Virus record (IMG/VR): IMGVR_UViG_3300047322_000219
Span: 1-26,538 of that record
DNA from: a virus
Strand: one strand, 5' to 3'
DNA: 26,538 nt
A program made the position numbers and the translations under genes. This document shows positions 1,329-26,538 of this stretch, in pieces; position 1 is the first letter of the stretch, and each line of letters opens with the position of its first letter. The notes under the pieces are model-generated. The model did no database searches, was not told the DNA's origin, and was given only the letters and a program-made list of their open reading frames with translations.

Positions 1329-1794
1329 TCGGGCGTTGTATTACGTCCTGGACGCCAACGGCGAACCCGCCGTCGTCGACCTGGATAATTGGGGGGCATG
1401 GTTTGACGACGCCGACGCGCGCATCGTCATGCAAACCCGGATCGCGAAGGGACGCGCCGTCGAATGTCGCCCGCGGGCATGGGGTCGCGGCGGCGTCGTC
1501 GTGTCGACCGTGTTCCTCGCGATCGATCACGCGCACGACCTGGGACCGCCCGTCTTATGGGAAACGATGATCTTCGGGGGACTCATGGACGGCGACCAAT
1601 GGCGATACCGATCCCGCCTGGACGCCCTGACGGGGCACGCCGCCGCCGTGCGGCGCGTCCAGGCGATCCGCCGTCTACCTCGCAAAACCAAGATCGCCCT
1701 GGCGACCCGAACCCGCGGGCGCCTGACGCCCCGCCAGGGGCGCCGGGTCGCCCGGTTCGACGCCCAGGTATCCCGTATAGACGCTATGGTTTAG
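1318..1794 (+). CDS. conserved phage protein of unknown function
   Basis: A protein of about 158 residues. The segment STVFLAIDHAHDLGPPVLWE followed by TMIFGGLMDGDQWRY and a later GHAAAVRRV helix is a pattern I recognise from a very common uncharacterised phage protein family; the order AWFDDADARIV, then STVFL, then the E-T-M-x-FGG motif, is typical. No catalytic role has been assigned to that family as far as I know. Two consecutive ATGs at 1318 and 1321 could each serve as the start. The C-terminus is longer and more basic than usual (TRTRGRLTPRQGRR). The TAG stop lies inside one arm of the inverted repeat before the next promoter. Confidence 0.75.
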   Translation: MMFDRALYYVLDANGEPAVVDLDNWGAWFDDADARIVMQTRIAKGRAVECRPRAWGRGGVVVSTVFLAIDHAHDLGPPVLWETMIFGGLMDGDQWRYRSRLDALTGHAAAVRRVQAIRRLPRKTKIALATRTRGRLTPRQGRRVARFDAQVSRIDAMV

Positions 1795-1818
1795 GCGCGG
1801 TCCTAAACCCTATGGTTT
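1784..1818. repeat. operator-like repeat cluster upstream of the integrase operon
   Basis: Two direct copies of CTATGGTTT occur at 1784-1792 and 1810-1818, the second within CCCTATGGTTT. Between them GGTTTAGG (1788-1795) and CCTAAACC (1802-1809) form a perfect 8-bp inverted repeat around a 6-base loop. The cluster ends just before the -10 element at 1825. The same motif recurs around the promoter at 22253. I infer protein-binding operators; a weak hairpin terminator for the upstream cluster is a second reading because the preceding stop codon lies in the left arm. Confidence 0.65.
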
Positions 1819-1821
1819 CCA

Positions 1822-1830
1822 TGGTATAAT
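1822..1830 (+). promoter_or_regulatory. extended -10 promoter for the integrase operon
   Basis: TGGTATAAT gives a perfect -10 hexamer (1825-1830) with the TGn extension. No good -35 lies 16-18 bases upstream, which fits an extended -10 promoter. The hexamer ends 7 bases before the ATG at 1838, so transcription should begin at or one base before the start codon and the mRNA should be leaderless. No ribosome site is present. The flanking CCCTATGGTTT copy at 1808-1818 would place a bound regulator directly on the core promoter. Confidence 0.7.
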
Positions 1831-1837
1831 CGACGCC

Positions 1838-2110
1838 ATGCCGAACGCCCCCCGCACGCTATACGACGTCGCGCGCAAAATCTGCCATGACGCCGGGTAC
1901 CCGTGGACGGATCCGCGCACGGGCATCACGTATCCGCCGAAACGCTTTGTCGTGCATTCGACCCCGCCTAGTTCGGTCGGGCGCCGTGTCGTCGATCCGC
2001 ATCGCGTCGTCGACACGACGACCAATTCCACGATCGATAGTTATTCCTCGAAACGCGCCGCGACGATGCACGCGGCGTATCTGAACAAGTACGAAGGGAA
2101 AAGTAAATGA
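1838..2110 (+). CDS. hypothetical protein, first gene of the integrase operon
   Basis: A protein of 90 residues that I do not recognise. It begins with TLYDVARKICHDAG, similar in flavour to the opening of other small phage proteins, then has a Pro- and Val-rich middle and a C-terminal helix (SSKRAATMHAAYLNKYEG). There is no signal peptide or cysteine cluster. It starts 7 bases after a TATAAT, probably on a leaderless message, and its TGA overlaps the integrase ATG in an ATGA junction, so both proteins should be made together. Genes in this position sometimes encode a recombination directionality factor or a regulator, but the sequence itself does not show which. Confidence 0.7.
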   Translation: MPNAPRTLYDVARKICHDAGYPWTDPRTGITYPPKRFVVHSTPPSSVGRRVVDPHRVVDTTTNSTIDSYSSKRAATMHAAYLNKYEGKSK

Positions 2111-3885
2111 GTGCCCCGCAGTTCAAACCCCTGGGCGAGATCGGCGCGATCTACGTTCGCAAGTCGAACGAACAACGCGGCGTCAGTTCCGACGCGACGT
2201 CGATCGCCCGCCAGTTAGATCACGGGCGACAGTTCGCCGCGAAAAAGGGCATCACGATCCCCGACGAATACGTGTTCGTCGACGACGGCGTATCGGGCGG
2301 CGAGATTACAACCCGCGCCGAATTGGTCCGGTTGCGCGCGGTTGTTGGCAAGTCGTCGCCGTTCCAACATTTGATCGTTCCCGACCTGGACCGCCTGGGG
2401 CGCGAGTCCGTCGGAACATCTATGGTCATGAAGGATCTGGACGAAGCAGGGGTCCAGATTTGGGAATACATGCGCGGCGAACGCGTCGCCCTGGACTCGC
2501 CGACCGACGTGTTGGTTATGCAGGTTCGGAACTACGCGAACGCGATGCAACGCGCGTCGATTCGGATGCACGTCCTGGACAAATTGACGCGCAACGCGAA
2601 GGCGGGATACTCGACGGGCGGGCGTACCTACGGGTACGACAATCGCGACGTCATCGGACCCGACGGCAAACGGTCGCACGCGATCAAGGTACCGAACGAC
2701 GCCGCCGCGATCGTCCGTCGCATGTTCGACCGCGCCGACCCCAACGGGTCGGGACGCGGCAAACACACGATCGCAAAGGAACTGACCCGCGACGGGATCC
2801 CGACCCCGACGGGGCACGGCGAATGGAGTCCCGCGACGGTCGCCGGAATTCTCAGTCGCCCGATTTACAAGGGGGTCGGCGTCTATGGACGGACGCAACA
2901 AAAAAACAAATGGGGGTCGAAACAGTACCGCCGCAAACCCGCGGCGGAATGGATGGCGGCGACGGCGGCGGGTCCGGCGATCGTGTCCGTCGAACAGTGG
3001 GACCGCGTCAACGCGACCGCCGCGTCGCGAACCGCCCGCCTCGCCGATGCCGGTCCCCGCGGCGGGAAACTCCGCGACGGCGCGTCGCATTACCTTCTGA
3101 CGGGGAACGCGCGTTGTCCCTGCGGGGCGCCGTTCCACGTCATGTGGAAAAGTCGCGAACGCGGCGCCCGCCGCCCGTATTACGCGTGCTATGCCTACCA
3201 AAAACGGGGGCGCGCGACATGCGCGGCGACCAACGGGACGCACGTCCCCGTCGTCGACGTCGAACGCGCGGTCATCAACGGGATCACGGATGCACTCGCC
3301 CGCCGATTTGACCCCGCCGCGATCGCCGCGGAGTTCGTCGCCGAATCGACCCGCCGCCAGTCGAAGGGGGGCGCCGCGAAACTCCGCGTCGAGGTCGCGC
3401 GCCTGGAACGGGAACGGGCCAAGTACGCCGCCGCCATCGGCGCGGCGGGGAACGTCGACGTCCTGTTGACCGAACTGGCGAAGCGTACCGACCGCCTCGC
3501 CGTCGTGCGCGCGGAACTGGACGCCCTGACGACGCCGCGGGGTCGGGTCGCCCTGCCGCCCGCCAACGTCCTGGCGAAAAAGATCGCCGCCGAATTACGG
3601 ACGTTCCGGGCGACCCTGGGCGGGTCGAACATGGGCGCGGTTCGCGACGCCGTGCGCGCCGCCCTGGACGGTCCCTTGACCGTCGCCCCCGCCCCGTTGG
3701 TCGGCGCGAAAACGCGCCACGATCAGGCGAATACGCATCGGTTTGAAATTACCGGCGTGATTCGGGGGGATCGGTTCCTGCGCGCCATCGTCGGGCAATC
3801 CCCCATATTGGGTGCATCGGGTTCCCGACGCACTCAAATAGGGGGATCGATCCCCTTTACCGTCATCGTCGGCGCCGCCGCCTAA
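2107..3885 (+). CDS. int: large serine integrase
   Basis: A site-specific recombinase of 592 residues that integrates and excises the phage genome. The N-terminal resolvase domain (about 10-155) carries YVRKS with the nucleophile Ser20 and Arg18, DGVSGGE near 60, and DLDRLGRE near 94 with Arg97 and Arg100. The recombinase domain (about 165-310) includes GYSTGGRTYGYD and IPTPTGHGEWSPATV. A zinc ribbon follows with Cys337, Cys339, Cys361 and Cys372; the first pair is C-x-C rather than the usual CxxC. A coiled coil runs from about 424 to 470. An AAGGG ribosome site precedes the ATG. The last 30 codons contain the presumed attachment site, so the final 20 residues would be replaced by host-encoded sequence after integration. 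A hairpin lies downstream. Confidence 0.95.
   Translation: MSAPQFKPLGEIGAIYVRKSNEQRGVSSDATSIARQLDHGRQFAAKKGITIPDEYVFVDDGVSGGEITTRAELVRLRAVVGKSSPFQHLIVPDLDRLGRESVGTSMVMKDLDEAGVQIWEYMRGERVALDSPTDVLVMQVRNYANAMQRASIRMHVLDKLTRNAKAGYSTGGRTYGYDNRDVIGPDGKRSHAIKVPNDAAAIVRRMFDRADPNGSGRGKHTIAKELTRDGIPTPTGHGEWSPATVAGILSRPIYKGVGVYGRTQQKNKWGSKQYRRKPAAEWMAATAAGPAIVSVEQWDRVNATAASRTARLADAGPRGGKLRDGASHYLLTGNARCPCGAPFHVMWKSRERGARRPYYACYAYQKRGRATCAATNGTHVPVVDVERAVINGITDALARRFDPAAIAAEFVAESTRRQSKGGAAKLRVEVARLERERAKYAAAIGAAGNVDVLLTELAKRTDRLAVVRAELDALTTPRGRVALPPANVLAKKIAAELRTFRATLGGSNMGAVRDAVRAALDGPLTVAPAPLVGAKTRHDQANTHRFEITGVIRGDRFLRAIVGQSPILGASGSRRTQIGGSIPFTVIVGAAA
3798..3847 (+). other. attP: candidate phage attachment site (attP) inside the integrase 3' end
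   Basis: The 50 bases are an imperfect inverted repeat centred on the dinucleotide TT at 3822-3823. By hand, 19 of 24 positions pair across the centre. TCGGG (3817-3821) mirrors CCCGA (3824-3828), GTGC mirrors GCAC except for one changed base nearby, and CCCCC (3800-3804) mirrors GGGGG (3841-3845). Large serine integrases use attP sites of about this length with a non-palindromic central dinucleotide, and the phiC31 site likewise has C-rich and G-rich outer arms around a central TT. A terminator is unlikely because it lies within coding sequence and lacks a T-run. Confidence 0.7.
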
Positions 3886-19859: not shown

Positions 19860-20171
19860 TTACCGATGATGCGGATCGACGTGCGGGCGCCCTGGCGTGT
19901 CGGGGAGTCCCCCGCCGAGATGCGGCGGGCGCGGGTTGATCGTCGGCGGGCGCCCGCGGCGGCGCCGGGTCGGGTCGGTCGGTTCGATCGGCGGTTCGGC
20001 GGCGCCGACGATACGGACGTGCCCGATGCCGACCAACGTGTTCAGCATCAACGGATCGTCGACCGTCCATTGATCCCCGGGCAAATACACGTCGCCGGTT
20101 TCGTAGTTCGTCGAGTAGACCAACGCTTCTACTAAGGCGGCGGGCGTTGGCGGCGGCAGGGGTTCAGACAT
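19860..20171 (-). CDS. small hypothetical protein with AT-hook-like tail
   Basis: A protein of 103 residues between the capsid and portal genes. The N-terminal half has helix LPPPTPAALVEALVYS and strands (YETGDVYLPGDQWTV, GHVRIVGAAEP). The C-terminal half is Pro/Arg-rich with RRRRGRPPT, an AT-hook-like core, then PRPPHLGGG. I do not recognise the family. The ATG at 20171 is a little downstream of a hairpin and may be read at lower level than the capsid. A DNA- or scaffold-associated role is a guess. Confidence 0.55.
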   Translation of the reverse strand: MSEPLPPPTPAALVEALVYSTNYETGDVYLPGDQWTVDDPLMLNTLVGIGHVRIVGAAEPPIEPTDPTRRRRGRPPTINPRPPHLGGGLPDTPGRPHVDPHHR

Positions 20172-20206
20172 GGCGTTGTATTCCTATCGGGTGAAAACGG
20201 ATGACG

Positions 20207-20234
20207 CCCAAAGTCCGGTATCCCGGACCCTGGG
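20207..20234. terminator. hairpin after the capsid gene
   Basis: CCCA/TGGG and GTCCGG/CCGGAC form a 10-bp stem interrupted by a 2-by-2 mismatch with a 4-base loop. It lies in the 90-base gap between the capsid stop and the next gene. The minus-strand copy has only a late, short T-run (CGTTTT), so partial attenuation or mRNA-end protection for the abundant capsid message is more likely than full termination. Confidence 0.45.
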
Positions 20235-20261
20235 CGCGAACGTCGCGTCGTCGTTTAATAC

Positions 20262-22169
20262 CTACGCGGCGTACGTCTGAACGGTGAACTGGACGGACCC
20301 CGGGCGGGCGCGTTTCCAGTTGATGATTCGGTCGGCGCGGAGTCCGACCAAATTGTTTTGCCACAGGGACGTCATCACGACGGTTGCGTCGGCGGGGTTC
20401 ATCGGCGCGGAGTCCATTTGTACGGACGCCTCGCGCGATACGTCGATTTCGATCCCGCCTTCGTCGGCGATCAAAATCCCTTCGCCGTTGATTAGCACGA
20501 CGTTGTTTCCCAACGCTTGCGACGCGATTGCCTTGTACCCCAGGATCGATCCGCCCAGGGGCGACATCAACGGGAACAACGGTTGCCCCAACGGGTTCAA
20601 CGCCGACGTCAACGCCAGGGCGTTGGTTTCCGACATCAACAACGTCGCTTGCGCGGTCGACATGTTCAACGCCAACATCGCCGCCGCCATTGCTTGAATG
20701 TCGGTTCGGGCGTTGGCGGGCGTCGTCCCCGCCGACGTGATCGGCGTGACGCCGTTGGTCACGGATCCGGGCGACACGTTCGCGATCGCCGCCTTCGTCG
20801 GATCGGTAAATTCGACGTCCAGGAACGACGCGATCCCCTTCATCATGTCGTTACGGATGACGTCTTCCGCCGACGGCGTCGACGTGCGGGCGAGTTCCTC
20901 TGAGATGACGATGATCCCCGCGCACTTCGCGATCGTTAGCGTCGTCGCGCTAAATGCGAGTTTCCCGACAGGCTTTGGGGCGCCCTGCCCGACCCACTGA
21001 TACGTGCCGCCGCCCGTCTGTTGCGCGACGGAAATATTGAACGGCACATGACGCATTCCGGGGATCTTCGACAACACGACTTGCGCGCGAAGGAGTTCTA
21101 GGAATTCCGACGCCAGGGGCACGATCGGCGCCAACGGTCCCGCCCAACCGACGTCGGACGTCGTCCCGATCGCGGTCGCCGCCTTCAACGCGAGTTCCAC
21201 TTCGGGGCACGAATCCCGCCACTGTTTCGCAATTTCGATCGCTTCCATCCGGTTCCCGCGCGCCATGATCATCGCGCGCACATAGCGCACGAACGCGGTT
21301 GCGGGCGGCAGGTTCGACTTGACCGTGATTACGCGACCCGCGGCGGGCGGCGGCGTCGCGGCGCCGCGTTGCGTTGCCGCCAGATCCCCGGGCGTCGCGC
21401 CGACGGGCGCGGCGGCGGCGAGGTTTGCCGCCGACATCGCGTTGAGTCGAACAAGATGCTGATCGATCCCTTTCAGGTCGGTCGCGAGTCCGTCGTATTC
21501 GTCGGCCTGGGCGGGGTCCAACGTGACGCCGCCATCGTTTGCTGCCGTCATGAGTTCGGTTTGGCGCGCGACCTTCGCGGCGCGCGTCGCTTCCCAGGTT
21601 TTGATTTGTTCGCCGATCTTGTTCATGGGGGACGCGTCCTTCAGGGCGCGTACAACGGGAATCCCTGTAACGCCAGGGGTATGACGGGCGCCCAACGCGG
21701 CGCGGTCCAACGCTTTGATCGTGTCGATCGTCGCCGACGCGTTCGCCGGAATCGTGACCAACGACAGTTCCAGGACTTCCGATTTCATAAACCGGAACGC
21801 TTGCGCGTCCTTCATCCAGGTTTCCTCGATCGACCGGAACCCGATCGATACCGCCGCCATGAGTCCCGCTTTGATCGACTGCCATGCCTCATCGATCCGA
21901 TCCTTCAACGTGCCCGGGTCGTCAACGACGGGTAACGTCGCTTCAAAATCGAGTCCGTCGGCGGTCGGCGGGAAAAACCGGACGGACCCGACGGGTTTGG
22001 TCGCGTCGTGGTACAGCAACAGGGGCACGGGGTTTTTGAAACTGATGCCCAGGGGTTCGACGATGTCGCCCAGGCGGTCGGGTTCGGGCGTCGACGCCGT
22101 GCCGGAAATCACCCGCGTAACCGGGTCGGCGGATTTCACCCGGAGAACCGAATACGCGCGTTTCAACAT
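20262..22169 (-). CDS. prohead protease fused to HK97-type major capsid protein
   Basis: A protein of 635 residues containing two proteins normally made separately. Residues about 1-160 are a U35-type prohead protease: the His motif LLLYHDATKPVGSV (His54), the Ser motif AAVSIGF (Ser108) and LELSLVTIPANA with Glu134. Residues about 182-280 are a helical scaffold or delta region (NKIGEQIKTWEATRAA, GLATDLKGIDQHLVRL). From about 285 the HK97 coat fold begins (TAFVRYVRAM), with VPFNISVAQQTGGG, SEELARTS, E-loop-like and P-domain strands, and LGYKAIASQAL through RADRIINWK. The protease would cut the scaffold from the coat during maturation. An ATG at 21626 (residue 182) could also start the scaffold-coat part alone. 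Confidence 0.93.
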   Translation of the reverse strand: MLKRAYSVLRVKSADPVTRVISGTASTPEPDRLGDIVEPLGISFKNPVPLLLYHDATKPVGSVRFFPPTADGLDFEATLPVVDDPGTLKDRIDEAWQSIKAGLMAAVSIGFRSIEETWMKDAQAFRFMKSEVLELSLVTIPANASATIDTIKALDRAALGARHTPGVTGIPVVRALKDASPMNKIGEQIKTWEATRAAKVARQTELMTAANDGGVTLDPAQADEYDGLATDLKGIDQHLVRLNAMSAANLAAAAPVGATPGDLAATQRGAATPPPAAGRVITVKSNLPPATAFVRYVRAMIMARGNRMEAIEIAKQWRDSCPEVELALKAATAIGTTSDVGWAGPLAPIVPLASEFLELLRAQVVLSKIPGMRHVPFNISVAQQTGGGTYQWVGQGAPKPVGKLAFSATTLTIAKCAGIIVISEELARTSTPSAEDVIRNDMMKGIASFLDVEFTDPTKAAIANVSPGSVTNGVTPITSAGTTPANARTDIQAMAAAMLALNMSTAQATLLMSETNALALTSALNPLGQPLFPLMSPLGGSILGYKAIASQALGNNVVLINGEGILIADEGGIEIDVSREASVQMDSAPMNPADATVVMTSLWQNNLVGLRADRIINWKRARPGSVQFTVQTYAA

Positions 22170-22195
22170 GTCGGGATAGTGTGCGCCTACCCGAA

Positions 22196-22215
22196 ACTTC
22201 TGTACGTACAGAAGT
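22196..22215. promoter_or_regulatory. perfect 20-bp palindrome in the divergent control region
   Basis: ACTTCTGTACGTACAGAAGT reads identically on both strands with no spacer. It sits 27 bases upstream of the protease-capsid ATG and 38 bases upstream of the opposing promoter's -35. A loop-free palindrome is a poor hairpin and fits a dimeric repressor or activator operator. The half site CTGTAC is not a recognised LexA box because the spacing is too short. Confidence 0.6.
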
Positions 22216-22225
22216 CCCTTTGTAT

Positions 22226-22272
22226 CCTAGGGTTTAGGGGCGACCCTATGGTTTGACAGAACCCTAGGGTTT
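22226..22272. repeat. three operator-like copies over the cassette promoter
   Basis: CCTAGGGTTT at 22226-22235, CCTATGGTTT at 22245-22254 and CCTAGGGTTT at 22263-22272 are spaced by 19 and 18 bases. The third is inside the palindrome AACCCTAGGGTT (22260-22271) and fills the spacer between -35 and -10; the second runs into the -35. A protein bound there would cover the promoter. The same motif occurs at 1784-1818. Confidence 0.7.
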
Positions 22273-22281
22273 CTGTATAAT
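22253..22281 (+). promoter_or_regulatory. perfect consensus sigma70 promoter for the opposed cassette
   Basis: TTGACA at 22253-22258, a 17-base spacer and TATAAT at 22276-22281 match the sigma70 consensus exactly. The -10 ends 7 bases before the ATG at 22289, so transcription should begin at the start codon or one base before it, and there is no ribosome site. The overlapping operator-like repeats imply tight control of a very strong promoter. Confidence 0.85.
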
Positions 22282-22288
22282 CAATGGC

Positions 22289-22654
22289 ATGAACAACATC
22301 ACGTCGTTAGTCGAATTGAACGCCGCCCACCCGCCCACGTTCCGTGAGTGGATGGGATGGACACTACGCCGCGAATACGCCGTCGGGCGCGCGGGTCGTC
22401 AGAATGCGCGCCGCGGGACCATGGGCGCGAAATCGCATTTGCTTATGGTCGAAGTGATCGTGTCGGTCGGCGATGATGCGAAGTACGCGGATCGCGTCGG
22501 CGAATTGCATCGCGTGCGCGGTTGCACGTCGTCGAACGGACAATTTACCGGAACCGTCGTCAAGGGGGCGGAACTGGCGGGCATTACGTGCAAGCGTTGC
22601 CTATCGAAACTCGCGGAACTGGCGGCGGTTCGCCGCGCCCAGGGGGTTGCGTAA
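22289..22654 (+). CDS. hypothetical protein, first gene of the opposed cassette
   Basis: A protein of 121 residues that I do not recognise as a whole. It opens with NITSLVELNAAHPPTFREW, has a basic middle (GRQNARRGTMGAKS), a strand pair (HLLMVEVIVSVGDDAK), and ends with HRVRGC, a later GITCKRC and a helix LSKLAELAAVRRA. An H-x4-C plus CxxC layout of this type recurs in small phage proteins and may hold one zinc ion. It is probably translated from a leaderless mRNA. The stop shares a base with the next start (TAATG). Regulation by the shared operator motif is likely. Confidence 0.75.
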   Translation: MNNITSLVELNAAHPPTFREWMGWTLRREYAVGRAGRQNARRGTMGAKSHLLMVEVIVSVGDDAKYADRVGELHRVRGCTSSNGQFTGTVVKGAELAGITCKRCLSKLAELAAVRRAQGVA

Positions 22655-22918
22655 TGCCCGCGACGACAAACCGGGATGCGGAATTGATCCGCATCCCGCG
22701 GCGGTTCATCCAGGATTCTAGCGACCGCGGATACATCGTCCCCGACGTCGTGCGCGCGACGTCGCGCCACTTCTGGATCCTGCGTCACGATCCCGCCATG
22801 GCGGAACTGATCGGCGACGCGCGGTTTCTACTCCGACCGCGGCGCCCAGGATCACGACTTCGGCGCCCGCGCGCTACTCCGCGCGTTGGCGTCCCAGGGG
22901 GTCGACGATGCCCGCTAG
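22654..22918 (+). CDS. frameshifted conserved phage protein
   Basis: The first 58 residues read IRIPRRFIQDSSDRGYIVP, then RHFWILRHDPAMAELIGDARF in one frame. In that frame the protein then turns into an Arg-rich shadow up to 23076. Moving forward one base at CGG-TTT-CTA (22822-22830) continues as YSDRGAQDHDFGARALLRAL and ends at TAG 22916, giving 87 residues. This matches a phage family I know in which DARYYAD-like sequence is followed by an ARALLRAL helix, so the break is real relative to the family. It may be +1 recoding, a mutation or an assembly error. It overlaps the next gene by 11 bases. Confidence 0.65.
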
Positions 22919-23150
22919 GACGGCGGCGTCGGTCCCCGTCGTGTGCGATTGGTGCGAACGCCCGACGACGCGCGAACCGCGATACGGGCGCCGCACGCGT
23001 CGCCATAAGTGCCCCCATGGGACTTGGTGTCCGCGCGCCGACCGCCTCCGGTTGCACGACAATCATTACCCCATGAACGGCGTATGCGACGCGTGTCGCC
23101 GTGGGTACTGGGTCCGCGAACATGCCCGCGTCGAAACGAGGGGGAAATAA
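22908..23150 (+). CDS. small zinc-ribbon protein
   Basis: A protein of 80 residues with three Cys groups: CDWC near residue 13, CPHGTWC near 35 and CDAC near 60, interspersed with basic residues (YGRRTRRHK). This suggests one or two zinc-binding ribbons, as in many small phage DNA- or RNA-associated proteins. The start is within the end of the preceding gene, and the stop overlaps the next start (TAATG). I do not recognise a specific family. Confidence 0.7.
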   Translation: MPARTAASVPVVCDWCERPTTREPRYGRRTRRHKCPHGTWCPRADRLRLHDNHYPMNGVCDACRRGYWVREHARVETRGK

Positions 23151-23347
23151 TGCCGATCAAATCGCCGACCCGCGGATACTCGCGGGCGTTTCCGTTCGAC
23201 CCCGACACGCGCAAGCGATACATGTTGGACGACATCCCCGCGGGGTTCTGGATTCGCGTGCGCGCCAAGTGCAAACGCGACGGCGTGTCCGTGCGCGGGT
23301 TGATCCTGTCACTCCTGGCGAATTGGTTGAACGACGGGGGCGAGTAA
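23150..23347 (+). CDS. ribbon-helix-helix-like protein
   Basis: A protein of 65 residues. After a short variable N-terminus (KSPTRGYSRAFPFDPDTR) comes YMLDDIPAGFWIRVRAKCKRDG, then VSVRGLILSLLANWL. A strand followed by helix, a short turn and second helix is the ribbon-helix-helix layout, with the DIPAGFWIRVRAK motif a common variant. It should be a dimeric DNA-binding protein. Both junctions are TAATG. As the RHH member of a cassette driven by the repeat-covered promoter, it is a good candidate for autoregulation, which is untested. Confidence 0.72.
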   Translation: MPIKSPTRGYSRAFPFDPDTRKRYMLDDIPAGFWIRVRAKCKRDGVSVRGLILSLLANWLNDGGE

Positions 23348-23535
23348 TGATCCAGGCCAGTCAACGATCCGTCGACGGGACGACCCTGTATCGTTGGTAC
23401 GTCTTCGTCGGGCGAACGCGGTTTGTTACCTGGGCGCCCACGGTCGACGCCGCGATCGCAAAAACACAACAACGCGCCGCGATGAAGGGGTTGCGCGTCG
23501 ACCGCGTCGAACCCGCGCCGCCCCTCGCCCCCTAA
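23347..23535 (+). CDS. small hypothetical protein, last gene of the cassette
   Basis: A protein of 62 residues that I do not recognise. It has two strands (TLYRWYVFVGRTRFVTWA) and one helix (TVDAAIAKTQQRAAMKGL), then a Pro-rich end. A strand-strand-helix fold of this size may be a small subunit-binding or DNA-mimic type protein, but nothing is diagnostic. The stop overlaps the stop of the convergent RHH gene by three bases (23533-23535), leaving no room for a separate terminator. Confidence 0.6.
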   Translation: MIQASQRSVDGTTLYRWYVFVGRTRFVTWAPTVDAAIAKTQQRAAMKGLRVDRVEPAPPLAP

Positions 23536-23765
23536 TCCCCCGCGCCGTCCCGTTTCGGCCCCGGCGCGAGGTCTGACCAATCGCGCCGCGGGCGGTCGAA
23601 CCGTTCGTCGATCATTTCCCGAATCACGCCCGATACCCCCCGCCCCGTCGCGTCGGCGACCCGCCGCAGTTCGATCCGATGCGCGGGCGTCACCCGCACG
23701 ACGACCCGTTCAGACGCCGTCGTGCCGTACGCGGGCGGTCGCCCCTGGATGCGTTTGTCAGTCAT
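23532..23765 (-). CDS. CopG-like ribbon-helix-helix protein
   Basis: A protein of 77 residues. SERVVVRVTPAHRIELRRVADATG followed by VSGVIREMIDERFD gives strand, helix, turn and second helix, as in CopG/Arc repressors. An N-terminal GRPPAYG segment may contact the minor groove. The C-terminus is charged and short. It is directly downstream of the large terminase (TAATG junction) as the last gene of the packaging block. It may regulate the adjacent opposed cassette or the late genes. Confidence 0.75.
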   Translation of the reverse strand: MTDKRIQGRPPAYGTTASERVVVRVTPAHRIELRRVADATGRGVSGVIREMIDERFDRPRRDWSDLAPGPKRDGAGD

Positions 23766-25540
23766 TACGCCCCCCCTACGACGACGATTTGATATTCCGG
23801 GACGCGGTCGCGCGGCGCCGCGTGCGCGCGTTCGCCCATGATCAACGCGACCGCGCCGTCGATCCGTTTCGCCGGGTTGCGCGGTTTGACGGGGCGAATC
23901 CGTCCGGCGTCGTCGGTTTTGATCGCGATGTTTTCCCAATTCCATCGCAACACCCGGTGCCCGTCGTGATGCACGCGGCGCCCCTTGATCAACGCTTCGA
24001 CGACTTGCGACGGTTCCGAAAACATTTTGTAGTTCTGTAACACTTCGACGACGCGCAATCCGCCCAGGTCGCGGAGTTTCGTTGCGAGGTCGGTCGCGAA
24101 CGCGGGGTCGTATCCGATCGTGCCTTGCTTTAAGGCGGGATACCGCGGGACGATCTTCGTCGTGATGTCGTCGTAGATCCGCGAGTAGTCGATCACGTCC
24201 CCGTCGGTCGCGGTAATCCAGCCGCGGTCAACCCATATCGAATACGGGACGCCGTCCTGTTTTTCGTGTTGCCGTAATGTGTTTTCGGGAATCCAGAAAT
24301 AGGGACGGACGATCAGTTCGTAGTTCAACGCGACCGGAACCCGCAACGTCGCGCCCGTGTCGTCGTCCTTCGCCGCGACGTCCAGGGCGATCGCCGCCGC
24401 CAGGGGGCGCCGGAACACGACGACGAACGCCGCCAGATCCCACTTTTGCGCCAAGTCCAACCCCGCCGCCGCGTCGAGTCCGACGACCTGGGCGTCGCCG
24501 CCGTCGTCCTGACACGCGTCCCACCAATCGATCGGGATCCAGGCGGTCGCCTGATTCGTCCACACGTTCAAATGGTACCGAACAAAATCATTCCGCTTGC
24601 GGGGTTCGGCACTCGCTTCGCGTGCTTCCTCCGCGATGTCGTCGTGTTTGATCGTGATGCCGTGCCCGGGGTTGACCCGCGTCCAGACGGCGGGGTCGTC
24701 GAACGCGTCCCCCTTCGCCGCCTCAAAAATCACGGGCAACGCGGTATCGAGGTCGGCGACGTTCCCCGTCAATACGCGCTTCGCTAAATCGTATTCCTCA
24801 AAACAGATCCCTTCGTCGTCGTCGCCCGCGTGCGTAATGATGATCAACAACGGTTGATCGCGTTTCGCCATGGACTTCCGCAACGCTTCATACAGGTCGC
24901 GGTTTTTTTGCGCGTGCAATTCGTCGAAGATAATCCCGTGCGGGCGGAACCCGTGTTTCGTCGACGCGTCCGACGATAAGACCGACACGCCGGAATGGAT
25001 CGCGGGCCAGGTAATCGCGTTTTTGACAATCGCGCATCCCTCGAATAAGTCGGGGGAATTTTCGACCATGATTTTCGCGTTTTCGTGGACGATGCGCGCC
25101 TGATTCCGATCGGCGGCGACGGCGTACACTTCCGCCGCGGGTTCCCCGTCATAGCGGGCGAGGTAGATTGCCAGTCCCGCGCCCAGGGGCGACTTGCCCC
25201 ACCCCTTCGGGCAAAACGCGAACACTTTGCGGAACCGTCGTAACCCGTCCCGCGTCCGTCGCCATCCAAACGTCGGACGCACGATCAACAACGCTTGGTC
25301 GGCGCGCAGTTCAAACGCTTGCCCCGCAAACGCGCCGATATGATGTCGCAGGAATAACGGGAAAAAACTTTCGGCGCGTTCCGCTTTCGCCGCGTCGAAG
25401 TAGTACCGCCCCGAATGCGTTTCCCATCGGTCGCGCAGGGTCGACCATGTCGCGTGGAAGGGAATCGTGACCCCCGGCCAACGCTCCGCGGGCGAGGGTC
25501 CAACCCCCCACCATGGGCGCGGGCGGCGGGCGGTTGTCAT
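23765..25540 (-). CDS. terL: terminase large subunit
   Basis: A protein of 591 residues that powers DNA packaging and cuts the concatemer. The ATPase has Walker A CPKGWGKS (110-117), Walker B IIFDELH (203-209) and a coupling motif LLIIITHAG (231-239). The RNase H-like nuclease has acidic landmarks VVGLDAAAG (Asp356), IGYDPAF (Asp478) and IDGAVAL (Asp561). The whole is typical of the YmfN/COG4626 group. The ATG at 25540 is chosen because the sequence before it lacks family features; it lies 14 bases after the preceding stop, without a strong ribosome site. Confidence 0.94.
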   Translation of the reverse strand: MTTARRPRPWWGVGPSPAERWPGVTIPFHATWSTLRDRWETHSGRYYFDAAKAERAESFFPLFLRHHIGAFAGQAFELRADQALLIVRPTFGWRRTRDGLRRFRKVFAFCPKGWGKSPLGAGLAIYLARYDGEPAAEVYAVAADRNQARIVHENAKIMVENSPDLFEGCAIVKNAITWPAIHSGVSVLSSDASTKHGFRPHGIIFDELHAQKNRDLYEALRKSMAKRDQPLLIIITHAGDDDEGICFEEYDLAKRVLTGNVADLDTALPVIFEAAKGDAFDDPAVWTRVNPGHGITIKHDDIAEEAREASAEPRKRNDFVRYHLNVWTNQATAWIPIDWWDACQDDGGDAQVVGLDAAAGLDLAQKWDLAAFVVVFRRPLAAAIALDVAAKDDDTGATLRVPVALNYELIVRPYFWIPENTLRQHEKQDGVPYSIWVDRGWITATDGDVIDYSRIYDDITTKIVPRYPALKQGTIGYDPAFATDLATKLRDLGGLRVVEVLQNYKMFSEPSQVVEALIKGRRVHHDGHRVLRWNWENIAIKTDDAGRIRPVKPRNPAKRIDGAVALIMGERAHAAPRDRVPEYQIVVVGGA

Positions 25541-25554
25541 GGTTGCGCGATCGG

Positions 25555-25944
25555 TCACACCAAAAACGGCGGCGGCGTCGGTATTTCCACATGCGTCGCG
25601 CGCCACAAGTGCAACACGTTCGGATGTAGGTTGACGTACTCCGATTTCCGCGGGTGATATTGGATGACGACGTCGTCGTCGTCCCAAAATACTCCCTTCA
25701 CGAACGCCATTTCTTTCCAGGATGGCGTACGTAGGCGCCCCCGACTATGCGCGTGAACACTGACGTGTTCCCATCCCTGCGCGGCGGGGACCGCGGGATC
25801 GTTGCCGTCAGTGGCGATCGTGGACAACGTCCAACCGGGTTCGGGGGACTCGAAATGGAACGCGCCGTAATTGCCGACGCCGTGGGTCGTCCCGAACTGC
25901 GGGTGCATCGTGTCGCGCGATCCTTCGGGAACGTGAAACGCCAT
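25555..25944 (-). CDS. DUF7694-like protein
   Basis: A protein of 129 residues. Residues about 57-118 contain WEHVSVHAHS, RLRTPSWKEMAFVKGVFWDD, VVIQYHPRKSEYVNLHPNVL and HLWR in the order known from DUF7694, a domain common in phages near terminase genes. Its role is unknown; a link to methylation or nuclease neighbours has been suggested for other genomes but cannot be shown here. The N-terminus carries extra glycine-rich sequence (HGVGNYGAFHFESPEPGW). It lies 3 bases after the small terminase stop. Confidence 0.8.
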   Translation of the reverse strand: MAFHVPEGSRDTMHPQFGTTHGVGNYGAFHFESPEPGWTLSTIATDGNDPAVPAAQGWEHVSVHAHSRGRLRTPSWKEMAFVKGVFWDDDDVVIQYHPRKSEYVNLHPNVLHLWRATHVEIPTPPPFLV

Positions 25945-25947
25945 GGT

Positions 25948-26430
25948 TTACCCGCGCATCGCGTTAAAGAATTTCGCGCGTTGCTTATCGATCGCAACCC
26001 GCGTCGACCCTGGACCCTTCGCGACAACCTTGGACCGCGACGTCGGCGTAAACCCTAACCGTTCGTCAACCTTCATCAAAATTTCGATCGTCCGGTTCGC
26101 CTGGACGTGCCATTGATTCGGTACCTGATACCCGTTCCGCCCCGCGGCGATGACGTAGGGTTGCCCCGCGGCGGCGGCGAGTAGCGACGTCCACGTCGCC
26201 CATAGCGTGCAGTGCGAAATCGCCAGGGGACGATCCGCCGCCGTGACGTGCCCGATCCGAATCGCCGGAACAATCCCCCGCGTCCATTCCGCCCGCGCGA
26301 CGGGGTCCGTCAGTTCGTCAGGGATCGCGGCGTCGAGGATATCGGGGATCGGTTCGTCGAGGTTCAACGCCCGTTTGCCGGGGTTCCCTCGTAACACTTT
26401 CAGGCGGGTCGGCGTGTTGTGTCGTCCCAT
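25948..26430 (-). CDS. terS: terminase small subunit, P27 family
   Basis: A protein of 160 residues. RHNTPTRLKVLRGNPGKRALN near the start is the hallmark of P27-type small terminases, followed by IPDELTDPVARAEWTRGIV, a helical middle (ADRPLAISHCTLWATWTSLL), and NGYQVPNQWHVQANRTIEI with LGFTPTSRSKV, typical of the family. It recognises the packaging site and presents DNA to the large subunit. The frame stays open upstream to the window edge, but the family start is at this ATG. The ATG overlaps a copy of the TAAACCCTATGG motif. Confidence 0.92.
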   Translation of the reverse strand: MGRHNTPTRLKVLRGNPGKRALNLDEPIPDILDAAIPDELTDPVARAEWTRGIVPAIRIGHVTAADRPLAISHCTLWATWTSLLAAAAGQPYVIAAGRNGYQVPNQWHVQANRTIEILMKVDERLGFTPTSRSKVVAKGPGSTRVAIDKQRAKFFNAMRG

Positions 26431-26438
26431 AGGGTTTA
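26427..26438 (-). promoter_or_regulatory. operator-like 12-mer over the small-terminase start
   Basis: TAAACCCTATGG on the minus strand is identical to 1804-1815 in front of the integrase operon and overlaps the terS ATG. No -10 element is visible here, so this may act on translation or on promoter sequence outside the window, or be a chance match. Confidence 0.4.
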
Positions 26439-26538
26439 CGCCAGGGTTGGTCCGTCGTCGTCCCTGGGCGCCCCCGGGATCGCCCCCTGGACGCCCCCGG
26501 TTGACCGTCGGAAAGTAGTGCGGTCGCGTGCGGAAGAC
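26436..26538 (-). CDS. possible 3' end of an upstream gene (partial)
   Basis: On the minus strand an open frame enters from the window edge and ends at TAA 26436-26438, 5 bases before the small-terminase ATG, with SARDRTTFRRSTGG and a DDDGPTLA ending. The codon pattern is plausible and an HNH nuclease or similar often precedes P27 small terminases, but too little is visible to assign function. The terS frame is also open here, so the call is weak. Confidence 0.3.
   Translation of the reverse strand, partial: SSARDRTTFRRSTGGVQGAIPGAPRDDDGPTLA

Follow-up and report, generated by a model that had tools for sequence, protein, structure and literature searches.

What governs a phage promoter that matches the vegetative consensus at every position, and what are the repeats that lie across it doing there? 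The promoter in question drives a short cassette of genes in a 26,538-nt viral contig (IMGVR_UViG_3300047322_000219), referred to here in its full length as the window. We describe the control region of this cassette, its second appearance at the integrase operon, and the candidates for the protein that would bind it.

A Consensus Promoter Tiled by Operators

An earlier note had described an exact TTGACA-17-TATAAT promoter with its −10 element 7 bases from an ATG, together with three CCTA(G/T)GGTTT copies spaced by 19 and 18 bases, and each of these features was recovered. The −35 (22253-22258) and −10 (22276-22281) hexamers agree with the consensus at 12 of 12 positions across a 17-nt spacer, the ATG at 22289 sits 7 nt past the −10, and exact CCTAKGGTTT copies begin at 22226, 22245, and 22263, with the sole further exact copy in 26.5 kb at 1809 (Table 1). 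A scan of positions 20000-26538 returned the cassette promoter as the only promoter-like match. In first-order Markov simulations of the window, a perfect promoter arose in none of 300 sequences, exact CCTAKGGTTT copies were expected at a mean of 0.03, and at least two exact same-strand copies within 30 bp arose in none of 2000 sequences, so that the operator array is not a chance product. The control region is real and non-random.

The full operator element is a 14-bp palindrome, AAACCCTAKGGTTT, from which Op1, Op2, and Op3 depart by three, two, and one mismatches, respectively. Op2 abuts the −35 and Op3 fills the spacer, a placement that would exclude RNA polymerase and that lends good support to the proposed action of a repeat-binding repressor, with the repressor itself putative. 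The description of the operators as "phased" should be dropped, since spacings of 19 and 18 bp amount to roughly 1.7-1.8 helical turns and do not place the sites on one helical face.

Table 1. Features of the cassette, its flanks, and the integrase (int) operon. Operator offsets take the A of the ATG as reference.
Feature	Coordinates	Strand	Offset	Remarks
Operator OpA1, AGACGCTATGGTTT	1779..1792	+	−59..−46	2 mismatches
Operator OpA2, AAACCCTATGGTTT	1805..1818	+	−33..−20	0 mismatches
int-operon extended −10 promoter, TGGTATAAT	1822..1830	+		poor −35; 7 nt before ATG
First int-operon gene, 90 aa	1838..2110	+		no assigned family; leaderless (predicted)
Large serine recombinase (integrase)	2107..3885	+		Pfam Recombinase 1.1e-20, Resolvase 7.1e-18; phrog_95 2.3e-65
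Prohead protease-major capsid fusion, flanking insertion	20262..22169	−		Pfam Peptidase_S78 + Phage_capsid; phrog_617 7e-132
Operator Op1, GTATCCTAGGGTTT	22222..22235	+	−67..−54	exact CCTAGGGTTT core; same in L002/L006
Operator Op2, CGACCCTATGGTTT	22241..22254	+	−48..−35	covers first 2 nt of −35
Cassette promoter, TTGACA-N17-TATAAT	22253..22281	+		
Operator Op3, GAACCCTAGGGTTT	22259..22272	+	−30..−17	fills spacer between −35 and −10; same in L002/L006
First cargo gene, 121 aa	22289..22654	+		leaderless (predicted); matches no known family
Second cargo gene	22654..22919	+		apparent 1-nt frameshift near 22825 interrupts frame
Cargo gene, 80 aa, Cys-rich, zinc-ribbon-like	22908..23150	+		CxxC motifs; Pfam matches weak only
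Predicted ribbon-helix-helix (RHH, ParG-like) gene, 65 aa	23150..23347	+		candidate autorepressor
Last small cargo gene	23348..23536	+		ATG read near 23347-23349; missing from L006
Arc-like RHH gene, flanking insertion	23532..23762	−		phrog_3431 Arc-like 0.0015

Two weaker operator-like sites overlap start codons elsewhere in the window, one at 25936-25949 (two mismatches) at the start of the gene flanked by terS and terL and the other at 26424-26437 (three mismatches) at the start of terS; both may be chance occurrences. A perfect 20-bp palindrome, ACTTCTGTACGTACAGAAGT, separates the cassette operators from the capsid gene at 22196-22215 and is kept in L002 and L006. Similar sequence forms the C-terminal end of the Arc-like gene in relatives, and the palindrome may be a remnant of the 3′ part of that gene. 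The repeats also resemble the TTTAGGG telomere repeat, a likeness we attribute to chance.

The layout also agrees with the leaderless start that had been proposed. The first cargo gene lacks a Shine-Dalgarno (SD) sequence (anti-SD ΔG of +0.9 kcal/mol) and, with the −10 so near its start codon, is predicted from sequence to be leaderless. AGGGGG SDs of about −10 to −11 kcal/mol precede those internal cassette genes for which the right start was scored (22654, 22908, and 23150). The int operon (1825-1840) repeats the TATAAT-N7-ATG arrangement, as does the allelic cassette carried by the close relative L006. Leaderless genes whose −10 adjoins the open reading frame are common in several phyla (PMC3160421, PMC12340547, PMC3898074), and the layout is therefore probably a host habit rather than a special device. 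At the capsid gene, a GCCGYANNCT-type element (containing the A2 and T6 of a −10) ends 6-8 nt before the start codon in 23 of 39 relatives; the capsid gene of the window has the element at 22170-22190 on the minus strand and no SD, and capsid mRNA may be leaderless throughout the phage group.

The Integrase Operon Shares the Operator

The earlier note had suggested looking for the motif upstream of int in related phages, and the co-occurrence is found inside this phage. The only perfect 14-bp operator in the window, OpA2, lies within the int-operon promoter, accompanied by the imperfect copy OpA1. This operon consists of two genes, the last of which encodes a large serine recombinase, and both it and the cassette are oriented opposite to the structural genes. 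The repeats, present at both promoters, thus point to a small regulon made up of these two operons. One regulator likely governs both, probably the predicted RHH protein encoded among the cargo genes. Searches with the integrase and the 90-aa protein retrieved no close homologues, with L144 sharing only a short motif.

A Probable Moron with Exchangeable Cargo

The gene order TerL, Arc-like gene, capsid gene was found in all ten mapped relatives (G004, G009-G011, G013, G016, G017, G019, G023, and G025; capsid 60-74% identical); the window has antisense genes over 1.3 kb separating the Arc-like gene from the capsid gene. The suggestion that the cassette is a moron gains support from its orientation antisense to structural genes, its own promoter, its absence from relatives in which the Arc-like and capsid genes stand side by side, and the exchange of its content; the comparison supports a putative moron inserted antisense between these two neighbors. 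A differing base composition is a usual, not an obligatory, trait of morons, and that of the cassette is not distinct (65.1% G+C against 63.6% for the window). A terminator scan of 23347-23540 gave no match, and folding there was not decisive. Within the cassette, the 121-aa product of the first gene yielded a fold model without confidence (pLDDT 38). L005 and L136 are near-identical across the frameshift in the second gene, which makes a single-assembly error unlikely. The window and L005 both end at 26538 and L136 runs through this point, marking an assembly break there and not the end of the genome.

The repeats were expected to be conserved in related phages, and this proved true of the closest ones: all four close contigs that reach the cassette promoter (L002, L003, L005, and L006) retain the operators, Op2 carrying in L002 and L006 a T-to-G change that stays within the consensus. 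In contrast, of the 27 other major capsid protein (MCP) relatives searched, 26 are without CCTAKGGTTT, and the remaining one, G024, has a single copy. In the closest colinear relative, G004 (36.7 kb), RHH gene, cassette, and operator are all missing, and G016 has an RHH relative without this operator. A capsid protein search of genome contigs recovered distant relatives only (30-44%), in Pseudomonadota genomes, and a DNA similarity search against annotated phages and plasmids returned nothing useful.

Among the close contigs, L006 holds a different allele. It retains the operators together with an RHH gene matching at 194/198 nt, and in place of the 861 nt from the first ATG to the RHH start it has 0.4 kb of unrelated sequence, which encodes a 134-aa protein of zinc-ribbon-like type. 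The RHH gene is the only cassette gene that the two alleles have in common. The −10 is displaced in L006, giving a spacer of 19 nt, so the perfect promoter belongs to the allele of the window and is not a conserved trait. The operators and RHH gene of L006 are no more conserved than the flanking MCP (98%), and their retention may thus only reflect where the exchange fell.

To place the operator more widely, viral contigs were searched for operator pairs. Most matches fell in contigs richer in A+T, in many of which CCTATGGTTT recurs in frame as a coding repeat, and the only relevant-looking ones were the close relatives and one unrelated contig, G034. Combinations of CCTAKGGTTT with TATAAT-N7-ATG beyond the close relatives were A+T-rich and look like chance. 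The 12-bp palindrome core was not found in a bacterial phage context in the literature searched.

Candidates for the Operator-Binding Protein

The 23150-23347 gene is predicted to encode an RHH protein, on weak scores of which none passes a curated cut-off: the Pfam match to ParG (E = 0.0045) lies below that threshold, the best PDB match by phmmer is ParG at E = 0.43, and a low-confidence model (pLDDT 65) resembles ParG, Arc, CopG, AmrZ, PutA, and MazE with fold-match E values of at least 0.46. Two sets of parallels make an RHH autorepressor the best candidate for operator binding. The first comes from relatives G010, G013, and G017 (L117/L118, L121, and L125), in which a BrnT toxin gene stands behind a leaderless-type TACAAT-N7-start promoter, followed in two of the three by BrnA (Pfam-confirmed in G010 and recognized by eye in G017); two of these three promoters have a −35 with 5-6 of 6 consensus positions and repeated GTAGTTACAA-like sites, unlike the window operator in sequence. 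The second is G034 (L189), an unrelated 34-kb, high-G+C, phage-like contig that carries AAACCCTAGGGTTT between the −35 and −10 of three promoters. Its palindrome sites lie at 1696, 2142, 2175, and 3327, downstream of an Arc-family RHH gene (1324-1539, E = 2e-7), with the nearest promoter about 160 bp off. That the RHH protein of the cassette binds the operators is a prediction we hold at about an even chance.

A regulon of the same two promoters could instead answer to another phage regulator, such as the products of 605-847 or 23532-23762, the 90-aa int-operon protein, or one encoded beyond the window, a reading we regard as rather unlikely. Its chief alternative binder is the RHH-like protein of 605-847, whose gene belongs to the lysogeny-strand cluster upstream of the int promoter, weakly matches CopG-like repressors, and is absent from G004, which is also without the operator; against the reading as a whole, no operator copy was found near that gene, and the Arc-like gene at 23532-23762 occurs in relatives that lack the operator.

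A further possibility is that the sites are operators of the main XRE (CI/Cro-type) immunity repressor, the cassette being silenced or tuned by lysogeny. The phage does possess a divergent XRE/XRE pair, seen on L136 (IMGVR_UViG_3300046739_000059), which overlaps window positions 22691-26538 at 99.97% identity over 3848 bp and extends 9.6 kb beyond the window into early genes, a RecT protein, and this pair, and tandem promoter-overlapping operators are typical of XRE-type repressors. Such repressors normally act on their own promoter, however, and the 9.6-kb extension, including the XRE/XRE intergenic region, contains no site within three mismatches of AAACCCTAKGGTTT. Over the region available, the shared operator is therefore probably not the CI/Cro operator, the genetic switch suggested earlier is not supported in the lambda sense, and we consider immunity control of the cassette improbable. 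The L136 search stops about 1-1.5 kb short of the left end of the window, a gap judged from the colinear G004, and this interval could hold a further regulator (the unseen candidate mentioned above) or operator.

An equally improbable reading is a toxin-antitoxin-like module with a toxic first gene, the RHH gene as antitoxin, and the operators as an autoregulatory array. RHH antitoxins are known to autoregulate, L006 resembles such a module in being a two-gene operon with an overlapping TAATG, and the BrnT/BrnA genes of relatives follow a like promoter layout. In the window, however, the cargo comprises three to four genes, the int promoter has the operator as well, and none of the cargo proteins matched a toxin family in four libraries (Pfam, NCBIfam, PHROGs, and PADLOC). 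Binding of a host factor, or use of the sites for activation or as a serine integrase recombination target, would suit an int promoter that lacks a good −35 and might need activation, but is highly improbable given that both operator clusters lie inside promoters, that the cassette promoter is already consensus, and that the operator is missing from nearly all related phages searched, some perhaps sharing the same host.

A Proposed Shared Timer for Integration and Cargo

The promoter, the operators at both promoters, the insertion, and the swap of cargo with operators and RHH gene retained are best explained by a cargo operon under autoregulation by an RHH repressor that governs the integrase too, an explanation for which we infer binding, repression, the leaderless start, and timing, and which we judge as probable as not. 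From the strong vegetative promoter, transcription would begin at or beside the ATG and yield mRNA with no leader. The AAACCCTAKGGTTT sites would be bound by a repressor acting as a dimer, the likeliest being the RHH product of this operon, which would block RNA polymerase at the −35 and the spacer and would also act in trans on the perfect operator copy in the int-operon promoter. At infection, with the repressor absent, integrase and cargo would both be made at once; as the RHH protein accumulates, the integrase would be shut off, and in the lysogen cargo levels would become low and buffered.

More tentatively, and at somewhat less than even chances, the cassette may represent a cargo-slot regulon, in which a fixed chassis (the AAACCCTAKGGTTT-operator promoter at one end and the RHH gene at the other) frames exchangeable cargo and the repressor, independent of XRE, also times the integrase. 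Integration and cargo expression would then run on one timer, with a second, immunity-independent repressor coupling the two. Morons are usually found by chance or through RNA-seq, and the AAACCCTAKGGTTT operator would, if this holds, provide a handle for finding cargo in uncultivated phages of the group. Of most interest are the operator that the cassette has in common with the integrase operon and the chassis that stays fixed as its cargo is exchanged. Swappable cargo and integrase control are linked by a specific operator, one that can be separated from that of immunity.

Comparison with Known Systems

Among prophage morons, STMMW_20121 in ST64B is a locus with its own promoter, antisense to lytic genes (PMC7067206). 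The cassette shares with such morons its insertion between adjoining genes, opposite strand, own promoter, and variable cargo, and differs in its operators common to the integrase promoter and its built-in predicted RHH regulator, as well as in a G+C content that is not distinct (65% vs 64%) and a clear terminator that was not found. Compared with the leaderless genes of other phyla (PMC3160421, PMC12340547, PMC3898074), the TATAAT 7 nt from the ATG and the missing SD are alike; for the cassette the leaderless start is predicted from sequence.

In a lambda-type immunity switch, too, a temperate phage promoter is overlaid by tandem operators, and the lambda cI mRNA from PRM is leaderless, as is predicted for the cassette transcript; the divergent promoter pair is absent here, and the operator is absent from the XRE/XRE region of the phage. 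With RHH-autoregulated operons (ParG, Arc/Mnt, BrnTA, and other RHH antitoxins) the cassette has in common a small RHH gene, here a predicted one, within the operon and short palindromic sites that tile its own promoter, here from −67 to −17. The cassette departs from them in RHH scores below curated cut-offs, in binding that is predicted, in cargo that is no known toxin, and in an operator that occurs also at the unlinked integrase promoter.
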